NCBI GenBank assembly: GCA_024280755.1
Contig: JAJRPN010000004.1
Location: 1-64,000, forward strand
Length of the DNA: 64,000 nt
From: Planctomycetota bacterium
GTDB taxonomy: Bacteria > Planctomycetota > Phycisphaerae > Phycisphaerales > UBA1924
Reading direction: 5' to 3'
Below the pieces are notes generated by a model. That model had not been told where the DNA came from. It was given only the letters and a program-made list of their open reading frames with translations, and made no database searches. The stretch's first letter is position 1; every line of letters starts with the position of its first letter. The translations under genes and the position numbers were made by a program. Of the stretch, positions 28,724 through 33,834 are shown piece after piece.

Positions 28724-28750
28724 AAAAAAACGCCCCGCAGGGCGTTTGGA
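28724..28750 (-). terminator. Rho-independent terminator for minus-strand CvpA-like gene
   Basis: AAAAAACGCCCCGCAGGGCGTTT on the plus strand gives hairpin plus U-tract on the minus strand. Confidence 0.85.
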
Positions 28751-28774: not shown

Positions 28775-30559
28775 TCAGCCGCCGAGCGCTTCCATTGGCG
28801 GGTCAAACTCGGCGACGCCAAGATCGCCGATGGCGAAGTTGGTGATCATCACCTTGTTGGTGACGATGAAGAGCAGGACCAGCTTCTGGTCGCTTCTGCT
28901 TCGGCTCAGGTTCGGAGCATCTTCGAGCCCTGTGAGGGTTGAGCCTCTGGTATAGCGGGTTTCAAATGTTTTTGAGTCGGTATACTCATACCCAATCGCT
29001 TCGTACTCGTTGCCCTTGCTATCGATCAGCAAGAGTGGTTGATCGATCAAGGCTCCCTTGGCAGCTTCGGAGAACAAGCCAAAGTCTGACTCTTCGCTGA
29101 TATCGATACGAATCAAGACCTGCCCTTTGCTCACGGCATAGCGATCAACACGAAGATTCTTCGCTTGAGGCACATTCTTGCGTCCGACATCTTTCTTGAG
29201 ATCGAATGTGCCAACGCCATCAACAACTTCATTCTTTTCGTTGAGTGTTAATCCACGCTTGGCAACCTGTGATGACATCATTTGGCTGATTTTAAAGCTG
29301 CGATTGATAAAACCAGATTGGATGCTTGAGTCATAGACGATCATGTTGGTCGTATCGAGTTTGCGTGAAACCGATTCACCCTTGAGAATTGCGCCCGAGA
29401 GGATCACGCGATCACGCTCGGTGATGTTTGCATATTCGACCGGATCTGGCAGTGATGATGTGCTTACACGCACATTCTTCACATACATCGCAATCGGTGT
29501 GTAGCCGGTCGGGATGACATATTCAAAGCTCATCAGCACGCGAGACTTGCCCCCGACGGATGTGATGAAGATGTCATTGGCATCGAATCGCCAGCGTCCG
29601 AACATGTCTGCTTCTGAAGATTCAGATATCGCTGCGATCGGGAATGCTGTCATGGTGTTGCCGTCGGCGTCTTCGAGGAGCAAACGATATTGACCATTGG
29701 AAACAACCAACTGCCCGCCCTTCTTGCCTCGCTCTTTCGCGCCCGGTTCAAACTCGACGACAAAGCCTGCAAGGTGCCCCTTTGTGACACGCTCGGAGTT
29801 GATGTCGAGGTATTTTTGGGCTTCATCGTTGATTGAATCATTGAGGAGATCGGTGAGTGTTTCTGAGCCGTCGGTCGCGCCAACGGTGTAGGTTGCTTTG
29901 ACTTTAAAATCATCAGGGCTCACCGCGTTGCGTCCTGCGCCATCGCCGGGCGAAACGCGTGAAGCGAACCCGACGAGTTCGAGTTCTGGGTACCATTTTC
30001 CTAAAGACTCGTTGGTGCTCATTGTGCCGTTGGAGAGATGACGATACATCTTCGAGACGATAGTATCGACCGGAATCCAGAGTGTGTCGGCTTTGACCAA
30101 CGCGCCAGATCCTGTCGCACGATCAGTAGAATACCACAATGGCTGATAGCCCAAGAACCCGGTTGGTACACGCATCGAGCCAACCCCAAGGACAAGAATG
30201 CCACAAGAGATGACTGCGGTGGCAAGCCCACAGATCCCGCCGCCAGCGTAATCGATAACCTTCGAATTCGTAATGTTGCCCGAGACAAGTTTGTCAGTCG
30301 CAAATCGCAGCACCAAGAGTAAAATGACAAACGGCACGACCAGGCTAACACCCCAAGCGATGGATTCAATGAAAGACATGAACCCGCGTTCTGGGCTTGC
30401 CTTCACCAGCAGCATCGCCAGAGGCTCCCAGAAAGCAAACGCGATCGCACCGGCGGTGATCACGCAGAGCAGGTGCAAGAGCGAACTGAACATGCCTCGG
30501 ATCATCCACGCGTAGGTGACACCGAGTACAAAGATGATGATGATGACATTCATAATCAT
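28775..30559 (-). CDS. CvpA-like membrane protein with large C-terminal extracytoplasmic region
   Basis: N-terminal helices MIMNVIIIIFVLGVTYAWMIRGMFSSLLHLLCVITAGAIAFAFWEPLAMLL...VSLVVPFVILLLVLRFATDKLV...VIDYAGGGICGLATAVISCGILVLG resemble CvpA (PF02674-type). About 430 residues of unrecognised sequence follow. Confidence 0.7.
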   Translation of the reverse strand: MIMNVIIIIFVLGVTYAWMIRGMFSSLLHLLCVITAGAIAFAFWEPLAMLLVKASPERGFMSFIESIAWGVSLVVPFVILLLVLRFATDKLVSGNITNSKVIDYAGGGICGLATAVISCGILVLGVGSMRVPTGFLGYQPLWYSTDRATGSGALVKADTLWIPVDTIVSKMYRHLSNGTMSTNESLGKWYPELELVGFASRVSPGDGAGRNAVSPDDFKVKATYTVGATDGSETLTDLLNDSINDEAQKYLDINSERVTKGHLAGFVVEFEPGAKERGKKGGQLVVSNGQYRLLLEDADGNTMTAFPIAAISESSEADMFGRWRFDANDIFITSVGGKSRVLMSFEYVIPTGYTPIAMYVKNVRVSTSSLPDPVEYANITERDRVILSGAILKGESVSRKLDTTNMIVYDSSIQSGFINRSFKISQMMSSQVAKRGLTLNEKNEVVDGVGTFDLKKDVGRKNVPQAKNLRVDRYAVSKGQVLIRIDISEESDFGLFSEAAKGALIDQPLLLIDSKGNEYEAIGYEYTDSKTFETRYTRGSTLTGLEDAPNLSRSRSDQKLVLLFIVTNKVMITNFAIGDLGVAEFDPPMEALGG

Positions 30560-30677
30560 GAGGCTATTCTCCGTCGGACTCATGCTCGCACAGGTGTGCA
30601 TTGTGGCATGAGTTGTTCTTTGAGCTGATCGAGTGGGTCACTGATCAGGTTTGGATCTTCGGATCTCGCAAGGTGGT

Positions 30678-32444
30678 TTATGCCTGTGCGGGCTTTGGTG
30701 ATTTGGAAGATGAGGTCTTCGAACTCTTCTTCTTTGGTGGTGCGGTAATCCGCGAGACTTCTTCGATGCTGGTCATGCCTTCGACCGCCTTGCGAAGTGC
30801 TGTTTGCTGAACTGTCGGCAGGCTGCGTTTACGCATCGCGGTGCGAAGCCCGTTCCAGTTTTCCGCAGCAATCATCTTGCGTTCGTCGTCTTCAATCGGG
30901 AAGACACCAAAGCAACCAGTCTGCCCGATATACCCGACGCCATTACATACGGGGCAAACCTCGGGCTTGTTCCGAATGAGTACCTGCCCGCCTTTTTTAT
31001 GAAGTTGCTTGACCTTGTCAGCAGGCAAACCGAGCTTTTTGAGCATCTCAGGGGTTGGCTGATAGGCGACTTTACAGTTGCCACAGAGCATACGAATGAG
31101 TTTCTCGCCCACAACACCCTTGAGCCCTTTGGCGGCGAGTTTGGCATCGCCAACCGCACGGACATAGAGCTGAATCGCAGCGATCGCACTATCTGCCTTG
31201 AGCGAGAGGTACACCCGCGAGCGATCGAGATCGGCGATCGCAAGGTTCTTGCCCGTCGATGCGTCGGGTAAATCACAGATACCAACAACATCTGGATCTC
31301 GGCGAAGCGTCGAGCGGACAAGTGTTGCAAAGTCTGGGCCTTCGCTGGTCGCATCAAACAGGATTTGCTTAATACCCTCGACTTCATCTTCAAAATCATA
31401 CTCGATTGTTTGAATGTTTGAGGTATACGCATCGTGCAACTGAAGCAACGAGTACAGTGTCGTGGTTCGCCCGTTGTCGCTCGGGGCACCCAGAAGGACC
31501 ATGCCCTCTGTGGTTTCGGCCCAAGATTTGAGTTCAGCGAGTTGCTTGTCGAGCAAGCCAAGGTCTTTGGGAGCCCGGCGAACAGCTTCGCGTGGGTTGA
31601 AGACGATCGAGAGTACCATGCCGTTCTTTGAACCACTCGCCACCATCTTGAGGCTCATGTTCGAAATCTTTTCGCTCGAGATCGTGATGTATCCCGAGAG
31701 CTTGCGTCGGCGGTCTTCAACACTGAGCCCGGCAGCCTTTTTCCAGAAGTCAATAATCTGAATCGCATCAGCCTTGGCCAAAGGCTCGCCCGCTTGGCGG
31801 ACACCATCGACGAGCATCGAAGCTGCGTAGGTGCTTTCGTTGGCAGGGATGATATCGATCTGTGACGCGTGGGCGTTGTGCCCGTTGATGACCACTTCTT
31901 CCGCAGCGACACGCACCGCATAGGCAGTCGCTTCCTTATCTGGCGGCACAATCTTCATCTTGTTGGCACCAATGATCACAAGCTCTGAGTTGCCAAGTTT
32001 CTTTGCTTCTTTTTTATCGCTTCGTTTCTTAGCCGATTCCGAGAAATCGAGCCGAAGCTTTGCGTGCTCAGGAATGCGTTCGTCCTTGTTGGCAATAGCG
32101 ATGAATATCCCGATGTCGATCCCGAAGATGGCAACCAATCCAAAGAAGCCCGCTGCGAGGCCTGCGATCCCGTCAATTGGCAGCACAATCACAAACGCAA
32201 GGGCCGCAAAGGCAAAGATCATGTGGATCGCGTTCCACTTCTCTTGCCCAAGGAAGAACCGCTTGGCGTGTTTGTCAAGAACCGTCGAGATCATCCAAGC
32301 CCAGCCAAGGAATGGCAAGAGCAATAAGATCGCTTTCCACCACGAGACAAGCATGAAGGTTTCGCCAGCTGCCAGCGTAAAAGCTGAGCCAAGCGTGACT
32401 GAACCAATGGGTTCAGTAACTGAAATGAGTATGGAATCGAGCAC
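30678..32444 (-). CDS. Membrane-anchored GspE/PilB-like protein with degenerate ATPase motifs
   Basis: C-terminal T2SS/T4P ATPase-like region: LLGAPSDNGRTTTLYSLLQ (Walker A position), LRRDPDVVGICDLPDASTG (Walker B position), CGNCK...CPVCNGVGYIGQTGCFGVFPIEDDERKMIA (zinc-binding region). N-terminus has 2-3 predicted TM helices. Confidence 0.75.
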   Translation of the reverse strand: MLDSILISVTEPIGSVTLGSAFTLAAGETFMLVSWWKAILLLLPFLGWAWMISTVLDKHAKRFFLGQEKWNAIHMIFAFAALAFVIVLPIDGIAGLAAGFFGLVAIFGIDIGIFIAIANKDERIPEHAKLRLDFSESAKKRSDKKEAKKLGNSELVIIGANKMKIVPPDKEATAYAVRVAAEEVVINGHNAHASQIDIIPANESTYAASMLVDGVRQAGEPLAKADAIQIIDFWKKAAGLSVEDRRRKLSGYITISSEKISNMSLKMVASGSKNGMVLSIVFNPREAVRRAPKDLGLLDKQLAELKSWAETTEGMVLLGAPSDNGRTTTLYSLLQLHDAYTSNIQTIEYDFEDEVEGIKQILFDATSEGPDFATLVRSTLRRDPDVVGICDLPDASTGKNLAIADLDRSRVYLSLKADSAIAAIQLYVRAVGDAKLAAKGLKGVVGEKLIRMLCGNCKVAYQPTPEMLKKLGLPADKVKQLHKKGGQVLIRNKPEVCPVCNGVGYIGQTGCFGVFPIEDDERKMIAAENWNGLRTAMRKRSLPTVQQTALRKAVEGMTSIEEVSRITAPPKKKSSKTSSSKSPKPAQA

Positions 32445-32676
32445 CGTCGTATCCTCTCCAAAGGTCGTTCATATCCGAGAGCATCTGGCTCACGGCAATA
32501 ACTATCAGAATCATCTTACAAACCCAAGCCGAGCAGGAATCGCTCCAGTAGCGTTTGATGTCACCCATTGTAGAGGCTCTCGCCTCCATAAGCATGCGTC
32601 AACCTCGTCGATCACTGTCCAATCCGGTTCGGATCATGAACGGGTAAGCACAATAAGCGAGAAATCAATCAGCCAA

Positions 32677-33834
32677 CTAGGCAAACTTCTTGAGCTTCAT
32701 CTGAAGCTCATCGACATTTGGCGAAGATTCGATCGCCGTCCGCATGTGGATGTACTCTTCTTCAACCAAACGCACGAGCGAATCGTTGAAGTCGATCATC
32801 CCGATGGTCTGGGCTTCAATCGAGTTGAGCACTTCACGCAGGTCGCCTTCGCGCTCGTCGAGAATGTACTTCTTGACCACGCCGTTGTTGATCAAAATTT
32901 CGAGTGCAGGGATACGGAAGATGTTTTCGTGAAGCGTCGGGAGTAGCTTCTGATACACAAATGCCCGCATCTGGAAGGCCAAGATTTTCCGAACCTGATC
33001 GACTTCTTCTTGTGGGAACAAGCCGTAGATTCGAGAGAAGGTCTGGGTGGTTGACGAAGCATGGATCGTACCAAAGACCAGGTGACCCGTTTCGGCAGCA
33101 TGCAGTGCGGCTTCAAAGGTTTCCTGGTCACGCATTTCACCGATCAACACCACATCAGGGTTCTCACGAACCAACGCACGCAATCCGGTTTTAAAGTCCA
33201 AGCAATCAAGCCCGATTTCGCGCTGGTTGATGGTTGATTTTTTATCTTCAAAGATGTATTCAATCGGATCTTCGAGCGTCAAGATATGCACACTCTTGCG
33301 TGCGTTGATGTAGTCGATCATTGATGCGATGGTGGTGGATTTACCCGAACCTGTTACGCCGCAGAGCAGCACAATACCCTGAGGCTGCATCGCCACATCC
33401 GACATGATCTCCGGCAGGTACAACCCCTCGAAGGGAAGGATCTCTGAAGTAATGTTTCTTGCAGCAACCGAGATAGTGCCTCGCGCTTGAAACAGGTTTA
33501 CACGGAAGCGATGCTTGGCGTCGTAGTTGTACGCGAAGTCGACCGAGCCGAACTTGTGAAGATCTTTCATTTGTTCTTCGGTCAAGATCTCTACGGCGAT
33601 CTTGAAAAACTCTTCTGCGGAGACCGGATCGACATCCATCGACTTGAGTACGCCTCGCATGCGGATCTTTGGTTTTTGATTCGATTTCATGATCAAGTCG
33701 GATGCACCGAACTTGATGGTTGCTTTGAGGAAGTCGCCCCAGCGTGTGGCGTGCGGGTCCTTCTTGGTGATGGTCGGATCAAGATCGCAATGTCCTGCGG
33801 ATGCAGTTGAAGAGGGGGCGTCGTTCACACTCAT
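32677..33834 (-). CDS. pilT: Type IV pilus retraction-type ATPase PilT
   Basis: GVTGSGKSTTIASMIDYIN, ILTLEDPIEY, RENPDVVLIGEMRDQETFEAALHAAETGHLVFGTIHASS: intact PilT motifs. Confidence 0.93.
   Translation of the reverse strand: MSVNDAPSSTASAGHCDLDPTITKKDPHATRWGDFLKATIKFGASDLIMKSNQKPKIRMRGVLKSMDVDPVSAEEFFKIAVEILTEEQMKDLHKFGSVDFAYNYDAKHRFRVNLFQARGTISVAARNITSEILPFEGLYLPEIMSDVAMQPQGIVLLCGVTGSGKSTTIASMIDYINARKSVHILTLEDPIEYIFEDKKSTINQREIGLDCLDFKTGLRALVRENPDVVLIGEMRDQETFEAALHAAETGHLVFGTIHASSTTQTFSRIYGLFPQEEVDQVRKILAFQMRAFVYQKLLPTLHENIFRIPALEILINNGVVKKYILDEREGDLREVLNSIEAQTIGMIDFNDSLVRLVEEEYIHMRTAIESSPNVDELQMKLKKFA

Follow-up and report, generated by a model that had tools for sequence, protein, structure and literature searches.

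The ATPases PilT and PilU retract type IVa pili. PilT is the classical retraction motor, with AIRNLIRE as its retraction motif, and PilU is a partner ATPase that depends on PilT. PilB and GspE, the related extension-type ATPases, combine an N2D domain and a RecA-like core with a tetrad of zinc cysteines. CvpA proteins (Colicin_V family) possess a four-helix membrane domain, which MarP-like proteins carry together with a periplasmic domain. CvpA mutants are sensitive to deoxycholate and a role in export has been suggested (PMC6705877). Our search of the open-access literature revealed neither a described motor partner for the CvpA family nor a description of the gene trio considered here, in which relatives of PilT, GspE and CvpA are encoded side by side.

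Organization of the locus

Our analysis considered a window of 64,000 nucleotides, this being the whole stretch of DNA under study. Among its ORFs, pilT, a GspE-like gene and a CvpA-like gene (the latter two named gspX and cvpX here) are consecutive and co-oriented on the minus strand and are followed by a terminator:

32677 to 33834, minus strand: pilT, encoding a predicted dedicated PilT-clade ATPase (386 bits against pilT_fam, clade, motifs)
30678 to 32444, minus strand: gspX, encoding a predicted pseudo-ATPase of PilB/GspE fold with three transmembrane helices (T2SSE match of 117 bits, fold, orthologues)
28775 to 30559, minus strand: cvpX, encoding a CvpA-like domain with four transmembrane helices and a long beta-rich domain (Colicin_V match, model)
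28728 to 28747, minus strand: intrinsic terminator 3' of cvpX (8-bp stem and T run)

The coordinates and strand that a first-pass annotation had given for the three ORFs were confirmed, and the terminator that it had placed at about 28724-28750 was found on the minus strand at 28747-28728. The intergenic gaps are 232 bp between pilT and gspX and 118 bp between gspX and cvpX, with the second gap being 76 bp if cvpX starts at an alternative ATG at 30601. An independent promoter for each gene, which had been named as a finding that would speak against a common unit, was not seen, as scanning of both gaps gave no promoter-like site on the minus strand in either.

The trio is flanked by rplI/ssb and by a sigma factor gene, as judged from the adjoining ORFs. 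The earlier statement that no pilus genes lie next to the trio holds for PilC on a wide scale, since a profile search of the genome found no PilC gene on the trio's contig; for secretin, pilin and prepilin peptidase, it was judged from the adjoining ORFs. No T2SSE gene besides gspX was found within the 64-kb window, and PADLOC returned no meaningful defence match.

A dedicated PilT

The PilT of the trio scores 386 bits against the NCBIfam model pilT_fam (TIGR01420), for which the cut-off is 319, and is thus a member of the PilT/PilU family. Walker A (GVTGSGKST), the Asp box, Walker B and the His box are all intact, so that the description of this gene as an intact pilT was borne out. Two segments deserve separate mention:

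33334 to 33360, minus strand: PilT Walker A GVTGSGKST, the lysine of which is present in every trio PilT examined
32848 to 32880, minus strand: VVKKYILDERE, a diverged segment where the AIRNLIRE retraction motif would be expected (alignment with the other PilTs of the genome)

In this alignment, the trio PilT does not match AIRNLIRE, while the other PilTs of the genome present AVRNLIREN or AIANLIRDN at the same place, near-canonical forms being found in those of contigs C20 and C37. In the tree, the trio PilTs, in which this segment is diverged, group together in a separate clade apart from pilus-type PilTs; the PilT beside pilB on C20 and the PilT beside pilC on C37 both fall outside this clade. 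By its clade and motifs, the trio PilT is thus a dedicated form. It has the family membership and all catalytic motifs of the PilT/PilU retraction ATPases but differs from them in its separate clade, in its diverged AIRNLIRE segment and in being paired with GspX and CvpX rather than with PilC or PilB.

Several other PilTs were noted along the way. In the first tree, the nearest PilT to the trio clade was a fourth paralogue of the same genome, on contig C14 (L224, L270); it stands alone near a gene for an NtrC-type regulator and is uninformative. PilTs scoring near the trio clade and found without gspX or cvp occur in many other families (L278-L288, L293-L297), some of them near an FHA-domain-like gene. 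At L289-L292, PilT is followed by a variant gspX slot, being a GspE with one apparent membrane segment in f57 and, in two f74 genera, a GspE with no membrane segment and a degenerate Walker A.

GspX, a membrane-bound pseudo-ATPase

GspX begins with a GTG codon, and its first ~30 residues are poorly conserved. The T2SSE match of 117 bits places it among PilB/GspE-like proteins, although it falls far under the GspE/PilB equivalog cut-offs (155 vs 630 and 131 vs 676 bits). The AlphaFold model (mean pLDDT 90.5) presents three long hydrophobic helices followed by a PilB fold, and superimposes on PilF/PilB chains with a TM-score of 0.85 to the target. The following features were located:

32085 to 32342, minus strand: predicted transmembrane helices of GspX, residues 35-62, 67-87 and 92-120 (AlphaFold helices and charge bias)
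31458 to 31490, minus strand: degenerate Walker A GAPSDNGRTTT, with the lysine absent in 67/67 sequences
30945 to 31085, minus strand: zinc-type cysteines C454, C457, C497 and C500, kept in 67/67 sequences

Over 67 sequences, the K+R values per segment are 0.04, 3.9, 0.22 and 8.5, which gives a predicted N-out, C-in topology with the ATPase fold in the cytoplasm. The GspX helices of the outgroups inspected come after N-termini resembling signal peptides, which fits the N-out assignment.

The Walker A lysine and the His-box histidine are both lost in all 67 sequences. As compared to the nearest relative, dN/dS is 0.048 for pilT, 0.070 for gspX and 0.070 for cvpX. Judged from these values and motifs, GspX is a selected pseudo-ATPase under strong purifying selection. 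It shares the N2D domain, RecA-like core and zinc cysteine tetrad of PilB and GspE, yet differs in its three N-terminal transmembrane helices, in having no PilC partner gene and, in this lineage, in the loss of the Walker A lysine and His box.

Loss of catalysis in the gspX slot

The gspX slot holds an intact ATPase in families f32, f40, f54, f101 and f102 and lacks one in Phycisphaerae-type genomes (the class of the window), f74, f83, f100 and f95; these codes stand for families, and the distribution covered lies within one phylum. The first-pass description of the GspE-like partner as catalytically dead is therefore correct for this lineage, where the lysine and histidine are found in 0/67 sequences, but not as an intrinsic state of the gene, given the intact outgroup families. 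In the PilT tree, f32, f101, f74, f83 and f100 form one clade (100/99) with f74, f83 and f100 nested inside (96/93), which implies that catalysis was lost at least twice. This count relies on the PilT tree, as the gspX tree, in which the degenerate clade reaches 51/70 and a rival grouping has an AU p of 0.39, does not contradict the PilT tree and does not settle the matter by itself. The PilT motifs are intact throughout, while catalysis in the gspX slot is lost. Such repeated losses beside an intact PilT suggest that GspX can do without hydrolysing ATP and that the role it has retained is a structural one.

CvpX

The Colicin_V domain (PF02674) matches residues 5-131 of CvpX with 28.9 bits by hmmscan, just under the cut-off of 29.3, and with 32.3 bits in the genome search, over that cut-off. 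Of 71 sequences, 60 match Colicin_V at an E-value of 0.01. The model (pLDDT 90.6) adds ~460 mostly beta-rich residues beyond the CvpA-like domain, in agreement with the first-pass report of a long CvpA-like third gene:

30167 to 30547, minus strand: CvpA-like four-helix membrane domain (model and Colicin_V match)
28778 to 30166, minus strand: beta-rich domain, probably extracytoplasmic (model, charge bias)

The charge bias weakly suggests that the C-terminal domain faces outward. A Foldseek search of CvpX against the PDB gave nothing significant, so that CvpX has the four-helix domain of CvpA but extends it with a beta-rich part that has no significant match among solved structures. MarP-like proteins likewise carry a large domain after the four helices, but no serine protease domain was found by Pfam matching in CvpX or its homologues. 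According to a profile search, CvpX is the sole CvpA protein of the genome.

Conservation of the trio

The gspX and cvpX genes are adjacent in 40/40 genera of the family (75/75 named genomes), with no separation seen anywhere in the family, while pilT and gspX are adjacent in 31/39 genera (55/71 named genomes). The outer neighbours are less well kept, namely cvpX-rplI in 22/39 and pilT-sigma factor in 15/31 genera of the family. In the about a fifth of the family where pilT is non-adjacent, six genomes were found to contain a trio-type PilT elsewhere. A gspX orthologue, well apart from PilB paralogues, is present in about 60/61 family genomes, and the gspX membrane domain in 41/41 sampled genomes of the class. 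The pilT-gspX-cvp order is found again in other families of the order, with gaps that go down to 2-26 bp, and also in those of the class. Several families elsewhere in this planctomycete phylum share it, often with a short CvpA-type protein as the product of the third gene; in f32 genomes, pilT is often elsewhere. As the arrangement recurs in dozens of genera, it is more than chance, and the trio is a real and old unit. The neighbourhood comparison proposed by the first-pass annotation thus showed a trio kept far outside the source genome, with its order retained despite changed flanks.

Two further candidates were considered. Directly 5' of the pilT of the trio, many of the phylum's families carry hisF (L072, L074, L076, L077, L083, L092, L093, L095, L096, L097 and L098), which is absent from this place in the window; as a fourth part of the trio, it was set aside as a housekeeping neighbour. 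An apparent gspX-cvpX fusion at L052/L146 is an artefact, since the 1222-residue ORF starting from gspX crosses cvpX in the wrong frame.

A proposed single complex and its alternatives

With no pilus genes recognized among the adjoining ORFs, the trio probably encodes an undescribed envelope machine. We infer the physical interaction and function of PilT, GspX and CvpX from gene order and sequence. Our leading reading, held tentatively at just under an even chance, is that the three make up a single complex of the envelope, with its origin in the motor family of type IV pili. PilT would be its only ATP-hydrolysing part. GspX would serve as a membrane-embedded, non-hydrolysing scaffold, probably an oligomeric ring, docking PilT at the inner membrane in place of the PilC and PilB of a pilus. 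CvpX, which combines four helices with an outward beta domain, would be the membrane part acted on by PilT-driven conformational change, and the complex would build no pilus of its own. The fuller proposal, i.e. a pilus-less envelope motor in which PilT drives a CvpA-family protein through a PilB-derived membrane ring whose ATPase activity was repeatedly given up, is possible yet rather doubtful. PilT relatives without gspX in other families, and the fraction of the family in which PilT is non-adjacent, count against a single complex.

The main rival is that the trio is an accessory of ordinary type IV pili, with GspX tethering or regulating a special PilT at the pilus base, PilT acting as a second retraction motor and CvpX as an envelope coupling factor. 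The genome-wide check for pilus genes cut both ways: while none of the six PilC proteins of the source genome is encoded on the trio contig, the genome contains several pilB-pilC sets away from the trio, as well as pilT, which leaves room for such a role. Also, 20/20 genomes surveyed for PilT-family genes have pilB-type or pilus-type PilT genes in addition. The family identity of PilT and the precedent of PilU fit as well. However, the search of the source genome showed no pilus-motor gene next to the trio, the PilT clade is dedicated with a diverged AIRNLIRE segment, and two other PilTs of the genome adjoin PilB or PilC instead. We regard this rival as unlikely on balance, though a serious contender.

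Conserved order without functional linkage, with three separate envelope genes kept side by side through chance or constraints on genome organization, is improbable. In the outgroups, hisF is an equally old neighbour of pilT with no obvious functional link, so that long-lived order need not mean common function; the gaps of 118-232 bp in the window and the displaced pilT of f32 genomes point the same way. Against this, hisF is gone from the window and from the mapped family loci while the trio stays, and the family-wide adjacency of gspX and cvpX and the short gaps in other families of the order argue for linkage.

A CvpA-type solute exporter or channel, with PilT and GspX as energising or gating subunits, is very improbable, since, to our knowledge, CvpA elsewhere functions without PilT or GspE gene neighbours, and the long beta domain is absent from typical CvpA. 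That CvpX is the only CvpA of the genome would favour this option, as would the proposal of CvpA as an exporter of a few substrates, e.g. deoxycholate (PMC6705877). That the trio is what is left of a decaying operon for type II secretion or pili, as the lost catalytic residues of GspX might suggest, is hardly credible, being already contradicted by purifying selection (dN/dS about 0.07) and by retention in each of the 41 class genomes sampled.

Implications

If the reading as one complex is true, type IV pilus motors would extend to use without a pilin or platform protein, and an extension-type ATPase would have been converted repeatedly into a membrane scaffold. CvpA, which is widespread and of a mechanism that is not established, would be tied to a defined motor, with PilT-GspX as the motor partner for the CvpA family.
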